Origin: Enemella evansiae
GTDB lineage: Bacteria > Pseudomonadota > Alphaproteobacteria > Rhodobacterales > Rhodobacteraceae
DNA: 64,000 nucleotides
Assembly (NCBI GenBank): GCA_017255395.1
Contig: JAFKDC010000019.1
Coordinates: 1 to 64,000, forward strand
Direction of reading: 5' to 3'
Position numbers and translations under genes: made by a program. Every line of letters begins with the position of its first letter. Position 1 is the first letter of the stretch. Positions 21,916 through 58,220 of the stretch are shown in pieces. A model generated the notes under the pieces. The model did no database searches. It had not been told where the DNA came from and was given only the letters and a program-made list of their open reading frames with translations.

Positions 21916-21973
21916 GGCATCCTCCAGATTTGCGGCGAGAGGGATCAGCTTGGCCGCTGTCGCGCGGCCCTCA

Positions 21974-22113
21974 CCTTCCCTCCGCCGGTGTTAACCGGTT
22001 CAGGTTCAACGGGTTGATGCGCTTACGCAAATCTCAGACAGGTCTCGCATGGCCCGACCGGCGGACCACGGTCCGACCGGACGGGGCAGGCACCCTGCCA
22101 CCCCGAGGTACGG
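21974..22113 (-). promoter_or_regulatory. TPP riboswitch (THI element) for thiBPQ
   Basis: Read on the minus strand, the conserved blocks occur in order: CGGGGTG (about 22100-22106), CTGAGA (22032-22037), CCCGTTGAACCTGA (about 22001-22014) and GGTTAACACCGGCG-AGGGAA (about 21976-21997). These are the pyrimidine- and pyrophosphate-sensor arms of the thiamine pyrophosphate aptamer. The distance between GGGGTG and CTGAGA is about 65 bases, so the P3 arm is extended by a GC-rich stem. Binding of TPP should lower thiBPQ expression; given the roughly 60-base spacing to thiB, by blocking initiation or by early termination. Confidence 0.92.
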
Positions 22114-22205
22114 CGAAGGCTAACGCCCGCCCGCGCGGCCTACAAGGCGAAACCTCTTGAGAGCGCGCCGCCCCTGCCCTAGGACACCGCCCAAAGGAGA
22201 CCGCC

Positions 22206-35329: not shown

Positions 35330-36640
35330 CTACCGCTTGCGGCCCGCCAGCAGCGGCAGCTTGGCGATCTTGTCGTTCAGCGTGCGCCGTGGCAGGCCGA
35401 GGATGCGGGCCGCCGCCTCTGTGTTGCCGTTGCACTGGTCCAGCACGCGGGCGATTTCCTGCGCCTCGAAATCCGCGACGAGGTCGCGCAGGGTCTGGCC
35501 GGTTCCACCCGTCAAACCGGCGGCCCGGCGCGTGTCCTTGCCCTTCAGGCCCAGCACGTGCCGGTCCGCCATGATCTTCAGCTCGTGCGCATTGCCGGGC
35601 CAGTGGTGCGCCTGAAGCGCCTTGCGGTCCTCGAAGGTGACCGCCGGCGCCTCTCGTCCGTGCCGCGCCGCCGCCGCCGACAGGAATTTCGCGAAGATCA
35701 GCGGCACGTCCGCGGGCACCTGCCGAAGGCTGGGCAGCGCAATCTCGTACCCGGCAATGCGGTAATACAGGTCTTCGCGAAAGCTGCCCTCGCCGATGAC
35801 GTCGCGCAGCGGTCGCGAGGCAGAGGCCACGACCCGGAACGCCAGCGCCCGCCCATCGCCTTCCGCCTGCCGGGTCTGGAGAATGCGCAGAAGCTTGGGT
35901 TGCAGCGTCGCGGACAGCGCGTCGATCTGGTCCAGGAACAGCGTGCCGCCGTCGGCGGCGGCGATCAGGCCGGGGTCCGCGCCCTCTGCCGCGCCGCGCG
36001 CATCGCCGAACAGCACCGCCTCGGCGCCGCTGTCGGGCAGGGTCGCGCAATTGACGACGACGAAGGGCCCCTCGGGGCGCGGGCCGCGATGGTGCAGCAG
36101 CCGCGCCGCCAGTTCCTTGCCGGTGCCGGTCTCGCCGGTCACGACCACGTCGATGTCCAGCGGGGCAATCTCGGCGAGGGTTGCGCGCAGGGCCGCCATG
36201 GTGCGGCTTTCGCCGATGAATTCGCCCTGCGCATCCAGCCGGTCCTGCAGGCGCGCCACCTCGGCCTTCAGGCGCCCGGTCTTCAGCGCCCGTTCGATGA
36301 CCATCAGGAGGTGCCCGGCGTCATAGGGCTTTTCAAGGAAATCCTCGGCGCCCTGCTGCATCGCGCGCACCGCCTGCGCCACGTCGCCGTGGCCGGTCAG
36401 CAGCACCACCGGCACGTCAAAGCCCGCCTCGGCCAGCGCCGTCAGCAGCCCGATCCCGTCCATCCCCGGCATCCGCAGGTCGGTCAGCACAAGATCCGGG
36501 GGCGCGGCCACGGCGGCCTCCAGCGCGGCCCGCGCCTCGGCGAAGCCCTCGGTGCGGTGACCCACGGCGCCGATCAGGTCGCACAGACCTTCAAGGTGGT
36601 CGGGGTCGTCGTCGACGACGAAGAGGCGCGCGCCGCTCAT
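35330..36640 (-). CDS. DctD-like response regulator, defective AAA+ motifs
   Basis: A 436-residue NtrC-family regulator: receiver with phospho-acceptor Asp54 (LVLTDLRMPGMDG) and Lys104, AAA+ domain with Walker A GETGTGK (169-175), and a Fis-type helix-turn-helix (NTEAAARILGLPRRTLNDKI). Two essential AAA+ motifs are changed: the sigma-54 contact loop GAFTGA reads GAAEGA (216-221), and Walker B reads LFLDQID (Asp237-Gln238) instead of Asp-Glu. It probably cannot open sigma-54 promoters in the normal way and may act as a simple repressor or activator. It follows the DctB-like kinase by 121 bases and likely regulates the TRAP transporter upstream. Confidence 0.88.
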   Translation of the reverse strand: MSGARLFVVDDDPDHLEGLCDLIGAVGHRTEGFAEARAALEAAVAAPPDLVLTDLRMPGMDGIGLLTALAEAGFDVPVVLLTGHGDVAQAVRAMQQGAEDFLEKPYDAGHLLMVIERALKTGRLKAEVARLQDRLDAQGEFIGESRTMAALRATLAEIAPLDIDVVVTGETGTGKELAARLLHHRGPRPEGPFVVVNCATLPDSGAEAVLFGDARGAAEGADPGLIAAADGGTLFLDQIDALSATLQPKLLRILQTRQAEGDGRALAFRVVASASRPLRDVIGEGSFREDLYYRIAGYEIALPSLRQVPADVPLIFAKFLSAAAARHGREAPAVTFEDRKALQAHHWPGNAHELKIMADRHVLGLKGKDTRRAAGLTGGTGQTLRDLVADFEAQEIARVLDQCNGNTEAAARILGLPRRTLNDKIAKLPLLAGRKR

Positions 36641-36761
36641 GCCCCGGTGCCCCGCGCCAGCGATCCGCGCCGCCCTGCCATAGACCCCGCATCACCGGCC
36701 TGCCCCGGGCGCCTGCCGCCGTGCTCCGCCCCGGTCCCGAGCCTCCGCCTGCCCTGCCCCG

Positions 36762-38534
36762 TCATTCCGCCGCCACCCGTTCACCGGCCATGGTGTCGAA
36801 GGTCAGCACCGCCCGCGTACCGCCGCCGGGGGCCTCGGACAGGGCCAGCCGCCCGCCGAATTCCTCGACGATGGTGCGCGAGATCGACAGGCCCAGACCA
36901 AGGCTCTCGCCGGTCTGCTTGGTGCTGAAGAAAGGTTCCGTCACCCGCGCCATCAGCGACGAGGGGATGCCCGGACCGTTGTCCACCACCGCGATTTGCA
37001 CCGAACCGCCGCTTGCCCGGCGCTCGACCCGCACGGCGGGCGCGGGGCGGTCCGCCACGGCGTCCAGCGCGTTCATCAGCAGGTTCACCAGAACCTGTTC
37101 CAGCCGCACCTCGCCCGCAAGGATCACCGGCCCGGGGCCCTGCGGCGCAAAGCCGATCGTCACACCGCAATCGCCCGCGCGCGGCCCGACCAGTTCCAGC
37201 GCCGAGCGCACCACCGTGTCCACCGCCACGGGCCGCCGCTCGCCGCCCTCCTTGCGCGAGAAGCTCTTGAGGTGGCGGATCGTCCGCAGCATCCGGCGGA
37301 TGTGGCTGCGCGCCTTCTCGATCCGCGAGACGGCGAAGTCGTCCGTCACCTTGCCCGACAACAGGGTGGCGGCCAGCGTCGCCTCCATCGCGGCCAGCGG
37401 CTGGCTGATCTCGTGCACGATGGCCGCCGACATGCGCCCCAGCGCCGCCATCTTCTCGGAATGCACAAGCGCGTCCTGCGTGGCGCGCAGGTCGTCCTCT
37501 GTGCGCTGGCGCTCCTCGATCTCGCGGGCCAGCGCCTGCGTCCGCTCGGCCACCCGCGCCTCGAGCAGGGCGCCCTGCCGCAGCCGCATGTCCACCAGCT
37601 GCCGCCGCTGCCACCATGTCTGCGCCAGCGCCCCCAGCGCCAGCGCCGAGATCAGCACCGCCGCCGCCACGCCCCATGCCAGCCGCAGCGCCGACACCAA
37701 CGACCCGCTGCCCAGCAGCACCCAGCCGTCGCCGGGCAGCGCCTGCCGCCTCAGCAGGCGGTCTTCGCCACCCGTCGTCATCACCGCCTGCCCCGCCTCG
37801 CTCAGCAGCGGCGCGCGGTCGGCCACCGGGATCGCCGCAAAGACCCGATGCGCGGCGATGGCGGCCCTTGCCGTCTCGTCCAGAGAGACAAGCGGGCGGT
37901 AGACCCAACGCGGCTGGCCCGACAGAATGATGACGCCGAAGCCGTCCGCGACGGTCAGCATCTCGCCCGCGTCGACCCATGTCTCTTGCAGCGGGCGCAG
38001 GTCGATCTTGACCACGGCCACCACCGGGCGCCCCGCGACCGTGGCCCGGGAGGCCATGAAATACCCCGGTTCGCCGGTCGTCACGCCGACAGCGTAGAAC
38101 CGCCCGGAGCCGCCCGCCATGGCATCGGTGAAATAGGGGCGGAAGGCGTAGTTCTCGCCGACGAAGCTGGTGTCGTCGCGCCAGTTGCTGGATGCGATGG
38201 CGGTGCCGGTCTCGTCCAGCAGGTACAGCTCGTCCGCCCCGGACTGCCGGGCCGCCACTTCCAGCGCGCGGTTGGCGGTCGCGATGCGCCCGGCGCTTTG
38301 TGGATAGGTCACGGCGGCGCGGATGCGCGGATCTTCCAGCGCCACCAGCGGCAGGTAGCTGTAGCGCTCTATTTCTGCCTCCAGCGTGCGCGCGGTCAGC
38401 ACAAGCGCGCGGTCGACCCGCTCTGCCAGCCCGGCCTTGGCGACCTGCCACGCGGCCAGCCCCGCCCCGCCCGCCACCAGCACGGCGGCAAGAACGAGGC
38501 ATGGCCAGAAGGCCCGGTGGCGGCGCGCGGTCAT
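36762..38534 (-). CDS. DctB-like sensor histidine kinase
   Basis: A 590-residue membrane kinase. Helix 1 (residues 10-28) and helix 2 (near 290-312) flank a periplasmic dCache sensor with SSNWRDDTSFVGENYAFRPYF, typical of C4-dicarboxylate-type sensors. A coiled coil follows, then the H-box IVHEISQPLAAMEA, N-box LLMNALDAVAD, G1 box DNGPGIP and G2 SLGLGLSIS. It should phosphorylate the neighbouring response regulator in reply to a transported substrate. ATG 38534 lies 4 bases beyond the stop of the DUF1850 gene, so it belongs to the transporter operon. Confidence 0.9.
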   Translation of the reverse strand: MTARRHRAFWPCLVLAAVLVAGGAGLAAWQVAKAGLAERVDRALVLTARTLEAEIERYSYLPLVALEDPRIRAAVTYPQSAGRIATANRALEVAARQSGADELYLLDETGTAIASSNWRDDTSFVGENYAFRPYFTDAMAGGSGRFYAVGVTTGEPGYFMASRATVAGRPVVAVVKIDLRPLQETWVDAGEMLTVADGFGVIILSGQPRWVYRPLVSLDETARAAIAAHRVFAAIPVADRAPLLSEAGQAVMTTGGEDRLLRRQALPGDGWVLLGSGSLVSALRLAWGVAAAVLISALALGALAQTWWQRRQLVDMRLRQGALLEARVAERTQALAREIEERQRTEDDLRATQDALVHSEKMAALGRMSAAIVHEISQPLAAMEATLAATLLSGKVTDDFAVSRIEKARSHIRRMLRTIRHLKSFSRKEGGERRPVAVDTVVRSALELVGPRAGDCGVTIGFAPQGPGPVILAGEVRLEQVLVNLLMNALDAVADRPAPAVRVERRASGGSVQIAVVDNGPGIPSSLMARVTEPFFSTKQTGESLGLGLSISRTIVEEFGGRLALSEAPGGGTRAVLTFDTMAGERVAAE

Positions 38535-38538
38535 GGCC

Positions 38539-38931
38539 CTACTCTGCCACGGCTGTCGCCGCTGCGGAACTCCCCGCGTGCGCCGCGCAGGGCGCCAGCC
38601 GCAGGGGCGCGGCGCCCTCGGTGCCCAGCACCCGGCAGCTGCCCCCGGCGCAAAGCGTCCAGCCCGAGACTGTCGCGCCCGAGGCCGCCAGCACAAGCGC
38701 GGGCACGGTCACCCGGCCCTCCCAGACCCACCAGCCGTCCTTGAGGCGCGCGCCCTCGCCCGGCTCCATCCCGGCGCCCGATCCCTGCACCGCGCCCTCG
38801 ACCAGCCGCAGGGCGTTTTCCTCGACGGCCCATGTCTCGCGCCATGTCACCCGCTCGACCGAATGGGTCCAGGACAGGGTGAACTGCGGCGCCATGGCAA
38901 TCGCCACGGCGCCGAGGCAGAGCGCGCTCAT
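38539..38931 (-). CDS. DUF1850 protein of TAXI-TRAP operon
   Basis: A 130-residue protein. The N-terminal hydrophobic segment (MSALCLGAVAIAMA) is a likely signal or anchor, followed by FTLSWTHSVERVTWRETWAVE, the signature of DUF1850 (HS-E--W-E-W). Two Cys (TLCAGGSCR) could form a disulfide. These proteins occur almost only beside fused TRAP permeases of the TAXI type; their role is unknown, possibly assembly or coupling. Its ATG overlaps the permease stop (ATGA at 38928-38931). Confidence 0.9.
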   Translation of the reverse strand: MSALCLGAVAIAMAPQFTLSWTHSVERVTWRETWAVEENALRLVEGAVQGSGAGMEPGEGARLKDGWWVWEGRVTVPALVLAASGATVSGWTLCAGGSCRVLGTEGAAPLRLAPCAAHAGSSAAATAVAE

Positions 38932-41003
38932 GCCCGCGCCACCCGCTTTCCGGTCAGCCAGATCAGCCCCGCCGTGGCTGCGGCCAGCGCAAAGCCGATC
39001 TCGTCCGTCATCGGCACCGAGGCGATCAGGGTGAAGGCCGCGCCCATGGCCAGCAGCCGCAGCGGCCAGCCCAGCGGATGCCCGCACCAGCCGATCACCG
39101 CCACGCCCCAGAGCGCGATGGACACGACCGTCTTGAACACCACGTAGGCCACCGCCGGCCAGAAGCCGATGGCCTCGGCCAAGGGCCCGCCCGGTTGCAG
39201 CATCAGCACCGGCGTGTAGACCGCCATGAAGGGGATGACGAAGCCCGCCGCCGCGACCTTGATCGCCTCCATCGAGATGCGCAGCCCGTTCGCCTTGGCG
39301 ATGGGGGCGGCGGCAAAGCAGGCCAGCGCCACCGGCGGCGTCAGGTCCGCGAGGATGCCGAAGTAGAAGACGAACATGTGGCTGACGATCAGCGGCACGC
39401 CGAGGTCCAGCAGCGCCGGTCCCGCGATCGACGAGGTGATGATGTAGTTGGGGATCGTCGGGATCCCCATGCCGAGGAAGATGCAGGTGACCATGGTCAG
39501 CACCAGCGACAGGAAGAGGTTCTCCTGCCCGATGGCGACGATGAACTGGCCGAAGGTATTGGCCGCCCCGGTCAGCGTCATGGTCCCGATGATCACACCC
39601 ACCAGCGCGCAGGCCACACCCACCGGCAGCGCCGTGCGCGCGCCCTCTGCCAGACTGTCGCGGATCAGGCCCAGCGTCTGCCGCCCGCCCTTGGACAGGG
39701 CGCACCAGATCAGCAGCGCCGCGATGGCGGCGAACAGCACATCGGTCCCGAATTGAAGGAAGGCCGCCGTGACGAGGCCGAGCCCGATCCAGAAGACCGT
39801 CCGGAACACCATCGAGGGCAGGCCCAGCACGATGGTCCCGCCAAGGATCAAGAGCACCGTCAGGCCAAGACCCACGGTCCCGGCAAAAAGCGGCGTGTAG
39901 CCCCCGAACAGCAGGTAGATCAGCACCCCCAGCGGCACCAGCAGCATCCAGCCCTTGCGGATCGCGCCCAGCGGCGAGGGCAAGGTGTCCTTCGGCAGGC
40001 CGCTCAGCGCGTGCTTGCCCGCTTCCAGGTGCACGATCCAGAAGGCCGAGGCGAAGTAGAGGATCGCGGGCACCAGCGCCGCCTTGACGACCTCGACATA
40101 GGGCACGTCCAGCGTCTCGGCCATGATGAAGGCAACGGCGCCCATCACCGGGGGCATGATCTGCCCGCCCATCGAGGCGGTGCTCTCGACGCCGCCCGCA
40201 AAGGTCGCGCGGTAGCCAAAGCGCTTCATCAGCGGAATGGTGAACTGCCCGGTGGTGACGACATTGGCCACGCCCGAGCCGGAAATCGTGCCCATCAGCC
40301 CGGAAGAGACGACCGAGACCTTGGCCGCGCCGCCCTGCCGGTGCCCGAAGAGGCCCATGGAGACATCGGTGAACAGCTGGATCATCCCGGCGCGTTCGAG
40401 GAAGGAGCCGAAGAGGATGAAGAGGAAGATATAGGTCGAGGAGACATAGATCGGGATGCCGTAGATGCCCTCGGTCCCGTAGGCCATGTGGTCGATCACC
40501 TGGCTGAAATCGTAGCCGCGATGGTCCAGCGGATAGGGCAGATGCTGCCCGAAGAGACAATACAGCAGGAAGGCCCCCGCGATGATCGGCAGCGCGATGC
40601 CCATCATCCAGTAGGCGGCGGCGAAGACCGTCACCAGCGCCACAACACCCATGACGATATCCAGATCCGTGGGCCGCCCGGCGCGCAGGATCAGGTCCTT
40701 GTATTCGACCCACTGGTAGACCGCCACCAGCACCGCGGCGACCGCCAGCCCCCATGCCAGCGCCTTGACCGCAGGCCCGCGCGGTCGCGCGTATGCCATA
40801 AGCGGAAAGGTCAGCGCCATCAGAAACCCGACGTGGATGGCGCGCACGATCTGGCTGGCCATGTCGATCAGATGCGCGGCGGTGGCGATCTGAAACAGCG
40901 AGAAGACCACGGCCATCCAGAACAGGAACCGGCCCAGAAGCGCCTCGGGAAAACGCACACCATGGCTTTCCGCCGGTTCCGGCGGCGTGGCAATATCGGA
41001 CAT
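38928..41003 (-). CDS. TRAP transporter fused permease (TAXI type)
   Basis: A 691-residue integral membrane protein fusing the small (DctQ-like) and large (DctM-like) TRAP subunits, with about 17-18 hydrophobic helices. The family region around SGSGVANVVTTGQFTIPLMK and MGGQIMPPVMGAVAF is clear. It moves substrate in symport with ions using the TAXI binding protein encoded upstream; the substrate is unknown, though a dicarboxylate is suggested by the DctB-like sensor. AAGGAGA precedes the ATG at 41003. Confidence 0.94.
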   Translation of the reverse strand: MSDIATPPEPAESHGVRFPEALLGRFLFWMAVVFSLFQIATAAHLIDMASQIVRAIHVGFLMALTFPLMAYARPRGPAVKALAWGLAVAAVLVAVYQWVEYKDLILRAGRPTDLDIVMGVVALVTVFAAAYWMMGIALPIIAGAFLLYCLFGQHLPYPLDHRGYDFSQVIDHMAYGTEGIYGIPIYVSSTYIFLFILFGSFLERAGMIQLFTDVSMGLFGHRQGGAAKVSVVSSGLMGTISGSGVANVVTTGQFTIPLMKRFGYRATFAGGVESTASMGGQIMPPVMGAVAFIMAETLDVPYVEVVKAALVPAILYFASAFWIVHLEAGKHALSGLPKDTLPSPLGAIRKGWMLLVPLGVLIYLLFGGYTPLFAGTVGLGLTVLLILGGTIVLGLPSMVFRTVFWIGLGLVTAAFLQFGTDVLFAAIAALLIWCALSKGGRQTLGLIRDSLAEGARTALPVGVACALVGVIIGTMTLTGAANTFGQFIVAIGQENLFLSLVLTMVTCIFLGMGIPTIPNYIITSSIAGPALLDLGVPLIVSHMFVFYFGILADLTPPVALACFAAAPIAKANGLRISMEAIKVAAAGFVIPFMAVYTPVLMLQPGGPLAEAIGFWPAVAYVVFKTVVSIALWGVAVIGWCGHPLGWPLRLLAMGAAFTLIASVPMTDEIGFALAAATAGLIWLTGKRVARA

Positions 41004-41020
41004 ATCTGTCTCCTTGGAAC

Positions 41021-41056
41021 GCAAAAGCGCCGCGCCCCCGGTCGGGAGCGCGGCGC
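41021..41056 (-). terminator. Hairpin between TAXI binding protein and permease genes
   Basis: On the minus strand a 9-bp perfect stem (GCGCCGCGC at 41048-41056 and GCGCGGCGC at 41027-41035, loop of 12 that can pair further) is followed by TTTTGCG. It looks like an intrinsic terminator inside the operon, likely a partial stop that makes the binding protein more abundant than the permease; it could also protect the 3' end of that mRNA. Confidence 0.75.
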
Positions 41057-41069
41057 GATCCGGGCCGGA

Positions 41070-42026
41070 TCAGTCGATCAGCCCCTGCTCCTTGTAGAAG
41101 CGCTCGGCGCCCGGGTGCAGCGGGATCGGCATGCCGTCCAGCGCGCCCTCCAGCGTGATCTGCGCCGCCGCCTGATGCGAGGAGACCAGCGTCTCGAGGT
41201 TCTCGAAGAGCTGCTTGGTCATCTCGTAGGCCAGCTCGTCCGAGACGTCCGAATGCGTGATCAGGTAGTTCGAGATCGCCACCGTCGGCACGTCCGCATC
41301 CTGCCCGTCATAGGTGCCCGCCGGGATCACCGCCGCCTGGTAGGGCGCGCCCAGCGTCTCGGCGATGCTGGCCGGGATTTCCAGCACGGTGATGTCCACC
41401 GAGGTCGAGAGGTCGCGGATCGAGGCCACGCCCAGCCCCGCCGACTGCAGCGTCGCGTCAAGCTGGCGGTTCTTCATCAGTTCCACCGACTCGGCGAAGG
41501 GCAGGTATTCCGTCTTGCCGAGGTCGTCGTAGGACATCCCCGCCGCGCCCATGATCGCGCGCGCGTTCAGTTCCGTCCCCGAGGCGGGCGCGCCCACCGA
41601 CACCGCCTTGCCCGGCAGGTCGTTCAGCGAGGTCGCACCGGCTTCGGCCAGCGCCACGAGCTGCACGTAGTTCGGGTAGATCGCCGCGATCCCGCGCAGC
41701 TTGTCCAGCTTCTTGGGGAAGCCCGCCTCGGCATTGCCTTCCCAGGCCGCCGCGACGCTGTCGCCCAGCGAGAAGGCGATCTCGCCCCGGCCGTCCTGCA
41801 GCAGGTTGAGGTTCTCGACAGAGGCCTTGGTGGATTGCACCTGCGTGCGCACCTTGTCGATGTTCTCGGCGTAGATGTTCGACAGCCCGACGCCCAGCGG
41901 ATAGTAGACGCCCGAGGTGCCGCCGGTCAGCACGTTGACGAAGTTCTGCGCCTGCGCGCCGGTTGCGCCAAGGGCCACGACGGATGCCAGCAGAGCGCCG
42001 CGCAGGGCGGTGTTGAAATGGATCAT
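41070..42026 (-). CDS. TAXI family TRAP substrate-binding protein
   Basis: A 318-residue periplasmic receptor. The signal peptide is residues 1-26 (cleavage after GAQAQ region). The TAXI signatures are VLTGGTSGVYYPLGVGLS at the mature N-terminus and VQSTKASVENLNLLQDG. It captures substrate for the fused TRAP permease downstream. GGGAGG lies 7 bases before ATG 42026, so the 75 upstream codons are rejected. It is the first gene of the operon; the 210-base gap to folA holds divergent promoters. Confidence 0.93.
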   Translation of the reverse strand: MIHFNTALRGALLASVVALGATGAQAQNFVNVLTGGTSGVYYPLGVGLSNIYAENIDKVRTQVQSTKASVENLNLLQDGRGEIAFSLGDSVAAAWEGNAEAGFPKKLDKLRGIAAIYPNYVQLVALAEAGATSLNDLPGKAVSVGAPASGTELNARAIMGAAGMSYDDLGKTEYLPFAESVELMKNRQLDATLQSAGLGVASIRDLSTSVDITVLEIPASIAETLGAPYQAAVIPAGTYDGQDADVPTVAISNYLITHSDVSDELAYEMTKQLFENLETLVSSHQAAAQITLEGALDGMPIPLHPGAERFYKEQGLID

Positions 42027-42237
42027 GATATCCTCCCGTTGAGTGATCCGCCCCCTCCCGGGGCAATCGCCGCCATGCAAAGCGCGGCGCGGGCGGTTGC
42101 GCAAAGACAACCCGCCGGGGCGGCGAAATCGCCGGGCAATTGATTGCCACGAGCCGGGCAACACCTTGCGCGGCGCCTGCGTGACAAGGCGGAACGGGGC
42201 GGCTAAGCCTGTGCGTACCATTCTGCCGGAGGCCCCC

Positions 42238-42708
42238 ATGATCACCCTCATCGCCGCTCACGACCGCAACCGCGCCATTGGCAAGGACGGGGACATTCCC
42301 TGGCACATCCCCGAGGACCTCGCCATGTTCAAGCGCGAGACGCTGGGCGGCGCGCTGGTGATGGGCCGCCGGACCTGGGAGAGCCTGCCGGTGAAACCCC
42401 TGAAGAACCGCCTGAACATCGTGGTCTCGCGGGATACCTCGCTGACCGAGCATGTGGTGGGGTCGGTCGCAGAGGCCGTGGCCCTTGCGCAATCCGAGGG
42501 GTATTTCCGGATCTACGGCATCGGCGGGCAGAGCATCTACGAAGAGATGCTCCCCATGGCCCACCGCCTGCTGCTGACCGAGGTCGACACGGAGGCCGAG
42601 GGCGCGGATACGTGGTTCCCGGAGATTGGGGATGGGTGGGTAAAATGTACTGACTTCAAATGCAGCACAAAACACGCAGCAATCTTAGAGCACATAAGGA
42701 TTTCCTAA
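42238..42708 (+). CDS. folA: Dihydrofolate reductase with foreign-looking 3' end
   Basis: A 156-residue DHFR that reduces dihydrofolate with NADPH. The active-site acid is Asp in IPWHIPEDLAMFKRET, with MGRRTWESLP and YGIGGQSIYEEML for NADPH binding. Codon use is GC-rich up to about 42635 (GDGW), then switches abruptly to AT-rich for the last 23 codons, although the encoded tail (AILEHIRIS) still fits the family C-terminus. The gene therefore looks like a hybrid created by insertion or recombination at its 3' end, and the next gene has the same AT-rich make-up. GGAGG lies 6 bases before the ATG. Confidence 0.93.
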   Translation: MITLIAAHDRNRAIGKDGDIPWHIPEDLAMFKRETLGGALVMGRRTWESLPVKPLKNRLNIVVSRDTSLTEHVVGSVAEAVALAQSEGYFRIYGIGGQSIYEEMLPMAHRLLLTEVDTEAEGADTWFPEIGDGWVKCTDFKCSTKHAAILEHIRIS

Positions 42709-42718
42709 GGGGATTGCG

Positions 42719-43516
42719 ATGAAAACTACATTACTTGATCAAGGAAATTTCGCGCTTGGACTAGTGTGCGGCATCTGCCTGACATCAATCGCATTTTTAT
42801 TTTACGATTACTATGACATCATAGTATCGGACAAAACACTTCTCGGCGCTATCATCGGCGGAGGCATTGCAGGCTTAGCCTCACTTTGCACGGCCTTAGT
42901 AGCAGTTTACTTTAGCATAAAAGATTCTCAGGAAAAGAAAAAGCACGGACTTGCTTCTTCGGCGTTCTCTGCGTTTCAAAAATCCACTGAGCTTTTAGAC
43001 ACTATTACGAAGACGTACCATCACTTTTTCACCGCGGATGAAACTAGTATCGTTCGTGCTGGAAAAGATACTCTGATATGGAAGCCCTTACACGGCGTTC
43101 GGGATCGAGTTCAATTCTCAGAGTCCGAAAAATGTTTGGGGCTTCAAATTAAACGCGCAGATCTATTCAACATGATTCAAAGCCTTCAGCGCCTAGAGGA
43201 AAGCTTTAGCTTCCTGAGGCTTACCCATGACGAGCACTTCAGAAACTTCCAGTCAACGGTTCAGCCACAACTAAGATCCGATCTTGTAACTTGGAAAGGT
43301 TCCGGACCAGCAAAGATTGACAACACTCAGATGATAGAACTTTTGAGCGTTCAAGGCCTGTTGAAATCTTTCCTGCTTGATGCACAAAAGGAAGCAAAAA
43401 GGCTGCACGCTTTGCTTATAGAAATCCTCGAGCGAGAATTCGGAACTACCGTGAACTTTGAGCTTGTGAACGTTAAACCTAGTGCTCGTGACTACTTCGC
43501 CCCAGCGGGGCGCTAA
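42719..43516 (+). CDS. Orphan two-helix membrane protein in AT-rich insert
   Basis: A 265-residue protein of unknown family, 10 bases after folA, with AAGGGGA before its ATG. Two N-terminal membrane helices (about residues 11-30, LGLVCGICLTSIAFLFYDYY; and 41-66, AIIGGGIAGLASLCTALVAV) are followed by a cytoplasmic, helix-rich, possibly coiled-coil domain of about 195 residues (IQSLQRLEESFSFLRL; LLDAQKEAKRLHALLIEILE). Codon use is AT-rich (many AAA, ATT, TTT, TTA) unlike its neighbours, a sign of recent transfer. The layout recalls membrane-anchored effector or sensor proteins of defence islands, but no enzymatic motif is seen. Confidence 0.8.
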   Translation: MKTTLLDQGNFALGLVCGICLTSIAFLFYDYYDIIVSDKTLLGAIIGGGIAGLASLCTALVAVYFSIKDSQEKKKHGLASSAFSAFQKSTELLDTITKTYHHFFTADETSIVRAGKDTLIWKPLHGVRDRVQFSESEKCLGLQIKRADLFNMIQSLQRLEESFSFLRLTHDEHFRNFQSTVQPQLRSDLVTWKGSGPAKIDNTQMIELLSVQGLLKSFLLDAQKEAKRLHALLIEILEREFGTTVNFELVNVKPSARDYFAPAGR

Positions 43517-43567
43517 AGATCGAACAGATATAAGTCGGCATTTGAGACCCCAAGTAAGTTACGTTTG

Positions 43568-43698
43568 CCAGCGCCGACCCGCGGGGTGGCGCTTCCACCG
43601 GGTTCGGCATGGCAGTTTATCCCGGCCAAGCCCGTGTGCCCTCACCGGATCACCCGGACCTCACCAAAGCGCCGCCCCGGGGGGCGGGTCGGCGCTGG
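43568..43698. repeat. Inverted-repeat element before parE
   Basis: Perfect 15-bp arms CCAGCGCCGACCCGC (43568-43582) and GCGGGTCGGCGCTGG (43684-43698) bound a 131-bp unit, and the pairing continues inward (to about 43594 and 43666) with a small loop. Inside lies GGCAGTTTATCCCGGCCAAG (43611-43630), the core of a dispersed repeat found again near 58095 and 63145. It may be a MITE-like element or a long RNA hairpin. It sits in the 420-base gap between the AT-rich orphan gene and parE, which otherwise holds no gene. Confidence 0.7.
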
Positions 43699-43938
43699 CG
43701 CGGCGGCTTCGCCTTGTTCCGCGCCCGGTGACATAGATCGATGCTGCTTGGGTCATGGAACGGGCGGTATCTAAACGCGGCTCCCTCCCCTCCCGCGATG
43801 GGGTCGACGTGGCGGGAATGCTCTCCCTCCGCGAGGCCTCGCAGCCCCGCCGCGCGCCCCGTTTACCCCGGCTTCGCGCTCTGCCATACTCCGGGGCCAA
43901 CCAACCAGAACAAACCGAGCACGCCGAGGGACCCCGAT

Positions 43939-45897
<1,959 letters not shown>

Positions 45898-58053: not shown

Positions 58054-58220
58054 CGCCATCGCGGGGCCGTGGTCCGGCGATCTTCGGTTTCTGGAAGGCA
58101 GTTTATCCCCGCCAAGTCCGTATGAACTCAGACAGGTCGCGCAGGCAGCAGCCAAATCGCCGGGCCCCGGGACGGCCCGTCATGTCGGAGACATGCCTCC
58201 GGCATGATGGCGCGGCGGCC
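58054..58220. repeat. Dispersed repeat, copy A
   Basis: Contains CCATCGCGGGGCCGTGGTCC, then GGCAGTTTATCCCCGCCAAG, GCCAAATCGCCGGG, GACGGCCCGTCATGTCG and CCTCCGGCATGATGGCGC in that order. The same blocks in the same order occur at 63108-63342, and the central block also at 43611. It includes the small palindrome CATGTC-GGA-GACATG. No protein is supported. Confidence 0.8.

Follow-up and report, generated by a model that had tools for sequence, protein, structure and literature searches.

A cassette slot at the 3' ends of folA and thyX in Rhodobacteraceae, best filed as an integrase-less defence hotspot

Some elements integrate at the 3' ends of genes (tRNA genes, guaA and similar) and restore them. 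The slot described here resembles these elements in that the end of a host gene is swapped for an end of matching length supplied by the insert. Unlike them, it shows no integrase, no direct repeats and no displaced native end, and its cargo measures about 1 kb. Integron cassettes (attI/attC) are likewise single-gene units with swappable cargo and a folded palindrome 3' of the cargo. In contrast to these, our slot has no RYYYAAC/GTTRRRY cores (0/29), no IntI nearby and no arrays; the orientation of its repeat varies, and in Mameliella the repeat stays while the cargo changes. The repeat itself shares with REP/REPIN sequences and their RAYT enzymes the dispersed intergenic location of palindromes near gene ends, but it comes without a Y1 transposase, is 130 nt long and has a one-sided bulge and a conserved GATAAA loop.

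The closest described class are hotspots of horizontal gene transfer without an integrase. Half of the hotspots studied by Oliveira et al. 2017 (PMC5635113) have no mobile element and 27% lack any integrase or transposase. According to the same study, core genes flanking such hotspots show more recombination, swapping of content by homologous recombination is documented for hotspots without mobility genes, and radically novel mobile elements lacking an integrase would be very surprising. Our slot is alike in that accessory genes are exchanged rapidly between conserved flanks and mobility genes are not recognisable. It differs from the hotspots of PMC5635113 in usually holding one gene, in having a sharp edge inside a coding sequence, in the recurrent G-rich mark on the left and the structured repeat at many right edges, and in that cargo families recur at two host genes unrelated to each other. 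The core defence hotspots of Pseudomonas aeruginosa (PMC10250203) are similar as conserved chromosomal places with diverse anti-phage systems; in our case the cargo consists of single stand-alone genes that take the place of an essential gene's 3' end. A literature search returned no papers on a thyX or folA hotspot. We found high turnover between conserved flanks without mobility genes, and the slot, which in these marine bacteria is a general feature much wider than the single insert from which we started, is best filed as an integrase-less defence hotspot.

The window, i.e. the whole stretch of 64,000 nucleotides that was analysed (G000:C19:1-64000), belongs to a Rhodobacteraceae genome close to Mameliella. 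GC content in 200-bp windows is 0.65-0.68 up to position 42500, 0.42-0.465 over 42600-43499 and 0.665 from 43500. The step from 67% to about 44% is located at 42640, within folA, and the values rise again at about 43520. Aligned to the window, the congener G001 is 93% identical over 35710-42640, shows no similarity until 43845 and is then 94% identical into parE. Since G001 matches both flanks and is unrelated in between, the composition border at 42640 represents a true mosaic junction. Between the junctions G001 carries another folA tail. Behind this lie a gene with a transglycosylase domain (Pfam Transgly, 3e-34) and, encoded on the opposite strand, a small membrane protein. Both the GC windows and this alignment confirm the AT-rich stretch of about 42635-43520, starting inside folA, that the sequence-only reading had reported. 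Its statement that the insert provides the last roughly 23 codons of folA is also correct, as 22 codons and a stop follow position 42640 and G001 has a different tail there. The description of this tail as still family-like did not hold: scored against a profile of 51 native DHFR tails, the 22 residues reach -0.7 compared to a native median of 43.1, and 41 of 300 shuffled tails do equally well. The Pfam match to DHFR_1 (E 4e-45) spans folA residues 1-136 and leaves residues 137-156 of the tail outside. All features are listed in Table 1.

Table 1. Position of the features of the folA slot in the window.
Feature	Position	Strand	Basis
folA (whole)	42238-42708		ORF list
Host part of folA, dihydrofolate reductase codons 1-134	42238..42640	+	GC-rich; Pfam DHFR_1; 93-94% identical to G001; conserved with Mameliella
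G-run-rich left edge GGGGATGGGTGGG	42627..42640	+	sequence; Mameliella counterpart GGGGAGGGGTGGCGGGAGGT; G4Hunter
Replacement folA 3' end, 22 AT-rich codons + stop	42641..42708	+	differs from congener tail; length constrained
Cargo gene, 265-aa protein, two membrane helices then all-helical soluble part	42719..43516	+	ORF; hydropathy; model
Structured palindromic repeat, right edge of insert	43567..43699	-	16-nt perfect arms; covariance model; covariation
Companion hairpin H1 of repeat, GCGCGGCGGCTTCGCCTTGTTCCGCGC	43698..43725	-	sequence; similarity restarts at H1 in most Mameliella/Maliponia pairs
Conserved parE upstream region, G001 similarity restarts	43845..43938	.	alignment
parE, DNA topoisomerase IV subunit B, conserved right neighbour	43939..45897	+	ORF; alignment to G001; relatives

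Seven folA loci were compared, those of G000 (the window genome), G001, four Mameliella and one Maliponia. The relatives were sampled with one genome per species and their names taken from GTDB (Mameliella sp. CS4, M. alba, Mameliella sp. MMSF_3455, M. sediminis, Maliponia aquimaris). In 19 of the 21 pairs similarity within folA ends at nt 402-416; the two exceptions each include G000 or G001, and here it runs on to 446 and 432. Mameliella and Maliponia have folA in common up to about GGGGAGGGGTGGCGGGAGGT, followed by an individual tail of 20-24 codons and an individual AT-rich gene: a DUF3800 protein, a 239-aa orphan, a 218-aa membrane protein, a GIY-YIG/DUF4357 protein and a YbjQ protein. 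As the left edge falls inside folA, each AT-rich segment provides the host gene with its final ~20 codons. The tails after the junction are 20-27 codons long at all seven loci, while random reading frames have a mean of 18 with a wide spread (p ~4e-7), indicating that a C-terminus of native length is kept. Likeness to a native tail is clear only for L027 (M. sediminis), weak for L024, L025 and L030, and absent for G000, G001 and L026. A hand-made strand pattern that fits 5/7 tails was set aside because it had been picked after inspection. On the other side of the cargo, similarity in most Mameliella/Maliponia pairs restarts 14-60 nt past the cargo stop, at a small hairpin that opens a longer palindromic repeat.

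The expectation that different cargo would be found after the same folA junction was borne out in every close relative examined (G001, Mameliella, Maliponia). The alignments proposed for the junctions and an empty site gave a left edge at 42640 against G001, and in Antarctobacter and two MAGs (L028, L029, L032) only 110-245 bp, with no AT-rich cargo, separate folA from parE. The reverse picture, with the same AT-rich tail and gene in all relatives or with uniform composition, did not occur. A constant junction and an empty site in relatives would be expected of a site-specifically integrated element, and a near-constant junction in seven genomes and cargo-free sites in relatives are seen here. 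The cassette slot at the folA 3' end is securely established and the insert in the window is its current occupant. Four features go beyond the sequence-only reading: the structured repeat on the right, the G-rich end of the host gene, thyX as a second slot, and cargo common to folA and thyX.

The 265-aa cargo protein of the window was indeed found to be without a known family: profile searches (PADLOC, Pfam, PHROGs, NCBIfam) gave nothing significant and thus no defence family. Its two membrane helices, also noticed before, are supported by hydrophobic peaks at residues 9-31 and 40-68. An AlphaFold2 model built from two sequences has a pLDDT of 42, at which only “all helical” can be read, and the comparison with PDB sequences returned only coiled-coil-type matches (E>0.3). 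No relatives were found in plasmids, phages or viral contigs, and a phage or plasmid origin was dropped on these grounds. The alphaproteobacterial sample held no relatives beyond the family-level matches, a distant relative being located behind thyX in G124 (27% over 152 aa, E 2e-9). Pfam domains at folA include DUF3800, DUF6602, DUF4357, YbjQ and Transgly; those at thyX include AbiJ_NTD4, CAP12-PCTIR_TIR, TIR_2, RiboL-PSP-HEPN, RelA_SpoT, DUF4062 and a weak nSTAND1. PADLOC assigned 4 of 10 tested proteins at E<=1e-60 (PDC-S35, PDC-S32, PDC-S33, ThsB) and left the others, among them the 265-aa protein, without assignment. The suggestion of defence-like cargo thus fits the slot overall by Pfam and PADLOC, but finds no family match for the 265-aa protein itself. 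We infer that the cargo genes, including that of the 265-aa protein, are mostly small stand-alone phage-defence effectors.

Distant relatives of the 265-aa protein in G124 and G209 lie in AT-rich DNA directly behind a gene that we take from its sequence to be thyX (flavin-dependent thymidylate synthase), followed by the same repeat as in the window. A thyX gene is present in 197 of 249 genomes of the family, with no match in G000 and G001. The folA type of the window and thyX seldom occur in one genome, as is expected for thyA/folA versus thyX genomes; G078 and G264 seem to carry both. We took 60 regions downstream of thyX, 58 of which were readable and 57 classified. AT-rich cargo directly past the thyX stop was present at 23 loci by a strict GC rule and at about 28-29 of the 57 after inspection. 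AT-rich stretches are thus located behind about half of the thyX genes, compared to only 2% of 628 sampled genes. These observations show that the thyX 3' end is an equivalent slot in genomes without the window-type folA. Cargos are nearly all mutually unrelated, with only 2 homologous pairs among 29 cargo loci. Across all seven folA and ~29 thyX loci they measure ~0.7-1.9 kb and usually comprise one gene, mostly co-directional with the host gene and often overlapping its stop codon. Some cargo is nevertheless common to both slots: GIY-YIG/DUF4357 proteins (59% identity), L026 and L204 (39%) and the 265-aa family (27%). In G209 (L019, L020) the thyX cargo is split by an IS630-like element and its two parts are ~660 kb apart, probably due to an IS-mediated rearrangement.

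Further relatives of the GIY-YIG/DUF4357 protein (L253-L280, mostly 32-42% identity) start at the stop codons of other genes in many genera and look partly vertical; judging from their C-terminal residues, the host genes are presumably moaC, hisD, ettA and a DUF4287 gene. In Antarctobacter heliothermus (L028 8609-9555) an AT-rich gene of 315 aa begins on the parE stop codon. The last codons of this parE use T/G third bases, and we regard it as a third candidate slot. In view of the GIY-YIG family behind moaC, hisD and ettA and the Antarctobacter cargo behind parE, folA and thyX are the richest sites seen and not the only ones.

The repeat at the right edge in the window is a long hairpin with 16-nt perfect arms, a one-sided C bulge and GATAAACTGC in the loop. 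It scores 109.9 bits with our covariance model R1, the highest value among 19 matches in the genome. The second-best copy (84.5 bits; L135 1-650, i.e. G000:C6:1-650) adjoins an AT-rich stretch of ~400 nt at the edge of a contig. The remaining copies, about 16, are located in GC-rich DNA away from AT-rich cargo. The AT-rich DNA of L135 has no clear ORF and an apparent IS end at the contig edge; it is perhaps a decayed cassette. A more diverged second copy in the window (58056-58186, minus strand) lies in GC-rich intergenic DNA without AT-rich cargo. An alignment of 31 copies, taken from many genomes, has both sides changed at 14 of 19 pairs and contains 73 compensatory cells compared to 27 for shuffled and 6-16 for slid alignments; the alignment was fitted to the structure, and within this limit the compensatory changes suggest that the folded or palindromic form is under selection. 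GC-rich inverted repeats within 300 nt of the cargo stop are found at 12 of 29 thyX loci versus 9 of 272 control windows (p=1e-8), and at 3 of 29 cargo-less thyX ends (p=0.015). Overall the repeat is present near the right edge in most folA loci and about half of the thyX loci. As it occurs in both orientations, is not recognisable in G001 and is missing from the other thyX loci, it constitutes a frequent rather than an invariant edge. A smaller palindrome, about GTCATGCCGGAGGCATGCCTCCGGCATGAC, is nested in larger copies in the one-sided bulge or nearby (L025 7243-7330, L135 ~640-670, window 58180-58215, L206, L213).

As for the identity of the repeat, a search of the window with Rfam matched only a TPP riboswitch (21960-22115, minus strand, 58.7 bits), which has an unusually long insert of 51 nt in one stem. 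The right-edge repeat is therefore not described in Rfam, and 5S rRNA, SRP RNA and tmRNA were dropped as candidates. A REP mobilised by RAYT was dropped as well, since G000, G001, G091 and G213 contain no RAYT (Y1) transposase.

The left edge carries a mark of a different kind. Cargo-bearing thyX genes typically end in GAATGGCGGGAGTTTGAGGGGGTTATTGGG, and the G4Hunter score of the last 48 nt is 1.11 with cargo versus 0.55 in its absence (p=2e-6); further upstream the scores do not differ. G4Hunter also peaks at cargo-bearing folA ends. KOPS/dif and Chi-like sequences were considered as readings of this G-rich end. The 628 sampled genes have a mean end score of 0.02; only 4 reach at least 1.0, two of these being cargo-bearing folA or thyX. 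At thyX the pattern TGGCGGGAG is present in 21/23 cargo loci versus 12/35 others. Of 121 genomes, 22 contain the 20-nt motif TGGCGGGAGTTYNNGGGGGT, each as a single copy; this copy lies at the thyX end wherever coordinates could be compared, and a reversed control pattern had no match. The main third-base shift in the thyX end begins at the Arg codon of EWRE. Codons -23 and -14 differ too, which hints at shared ancestry. Ancestry is a confounder of the link between cargo and G-runs: the thyX tree offers only 3 supported independent contrasts, too few for the link to be significant once ancestry is taken into account. In Primorskyibacter flagellatus the end of folA (L033 6421-6470) has a G4Hunter score of 1.77 and a slight GC dip without clear cargo, which may have been lost.

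No further trace was found of site-specific integration, which had been suggested as one possibility for the insert. The only ORF in 42641-43556 is that of the 265-aa protein and not an integrase. The nearest Phage_integrase match on the contig (13201-13710) lies more than 28 kb from folA; it is probably a core Xer gene, as it has a counterpart at similar distance in G001. No direct repeat of at least 10 nt flanks the insert and none is recurrent in 27 thyX loci; neither a direct nor an inverted repeat linking the left and right edges was found. The attC cores RYYYAAC/GTTRRRY are absent from all 29 thyX right edges and from window positions 43500-43900, and inspection by eye did not reveal a displaced native folA tail. 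The cargo of the seven folA and ~29 thyX loci contains no integrase or phage genes.

How the slot is filled can be explained in several ways. The reading we favour, for which our confidence is evenly balanced, is that contents are swapped by homologous recombination in the flanks, following insertions that are rare and biased, and that the cargos are mostly defence effectors. Contents would be exchanged mainly by homologous recombination in the conserved flanks after DNA transfer, the body of folA or thyX serving on one side and the repeat or the next gene on the other. The cargo would be transcribed behind an essential gene and be lost or replaced as phage pressure shifts; the 265-aa protein would then be a membrane effector with two helices, its cytosolic helical part acting as sensor. 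The common junction with differing tails and cargo, the restart of similarity at H1, the cargo behind about half of the thyX genes, the cargo families found in both slots, the defence matches, the G-rich gene ends and the palindromes at right edges speak for this reading. Excess divergence of folA beside the junction, which was not seen, would have been in favour of flanking recombination. A second step of entry is needed, since recombination in the flanks cannot make new cargo-gene junctions at nearly the same nucleotide and cannot transfer a cargo family between thyX and folA. This step may consist of rare insertions into new gene ends, with a preference for host genes that end in a G-run-rich stretch. 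The copies of the repeat away from AT-rich cargo, the lack of a recognisable repeat in G001 and roughly half of the thyX cargo loci, the ancestry behind the link between cargo and G-runs, and the GIY-YIG family behind moaC, hisD and ettA weigh against the favoured reading as well. The same observations could alternatively be accounted for by a trans-acting site-specific recombinase with integron-like logic, which puts cassettes of one gene each into the 3' ends of folA and thyX, rich in G-runs, and uses the repeat as folded partner site or cassette end. We regard this as possible but tentative. A recombinase reading the G-rich end would explain why independent cargos join folA and thyX at nearly the same base, and the almost constant left edge in the folA pairs, the single occurrence of TGGCGGGAGTTYNNGGGGGT at the thyX end, the enrichment of TGGCGGGAG at cargo loci, the third-base shift from the EWRE Arg codon, the cargo families common to two unrelated host genes and the strongly covarying repeat close to the cargo end are all in line with it. 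However, no repeat links the two edges, attC-like cores and integrases are missing from edges and inserts and no candidate enzyme was found, the repeat stands in both orientations relative to the cargo and is absent from about half of the thyX loci, and the thyX target occurs in no viral contig. In its full form, a novel mobile cassette system in which a putative recombinase moves single defence genes in trans between both gene ends with the covarying palindrome as partner site, this proposal appears rather doubtful to us. If true, it would mean integron-like exchange without integron parts, linking two alternative genes of the thymidylate pathway.

Two further explanations have to be weighed against flanking recombination with rare entry. 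Foreign genes might simply pile up as last genes of operons by illegitimate recombination, with palindrome and G-rich end being incidental and serving transcription or translation (terminator, coupling). The mostly co-directional cargo that often overlaps the host stop, the GIY-YIG relatives behind moaC, hisD and ettA and the copies of the repeat in other intergenic regions are compatible with this, yet a pile-up of this kind is improbable given the contrast between thyX and the 628 sampled genes, the nearly identical left edge in seven genomes and the length-matched replacement tails. It is very improbable, in our view, that an integrative element or prophage once entered at the folA 3' end, lost its integrase and left the insert behind as a remnant. 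The replaced gene tail and sharp composition border usual for such elements are seen here, but the folA and thyX loci uniformly hold short cargo without integrase or phage genes, neither target nor relatives appear in viral contigs, phages or plasmids, there is no att duplication, and repeated independent decay to single genes is unlikely.

With usually one gene, a sharp left edge and an often marked right edge, the slot is about as simple as an integrase-less hotspot gets. One bacterial family provides dozens of natural examples, in each of which the tail of an essential host gene records the event, and how genes enter such hotspots becomes testable here. Many cargos at thyX and folA have no clear match in Pfam or PADLOC; as those with a match fall largely in known or candidate defence families, the slot points to new defence genes.
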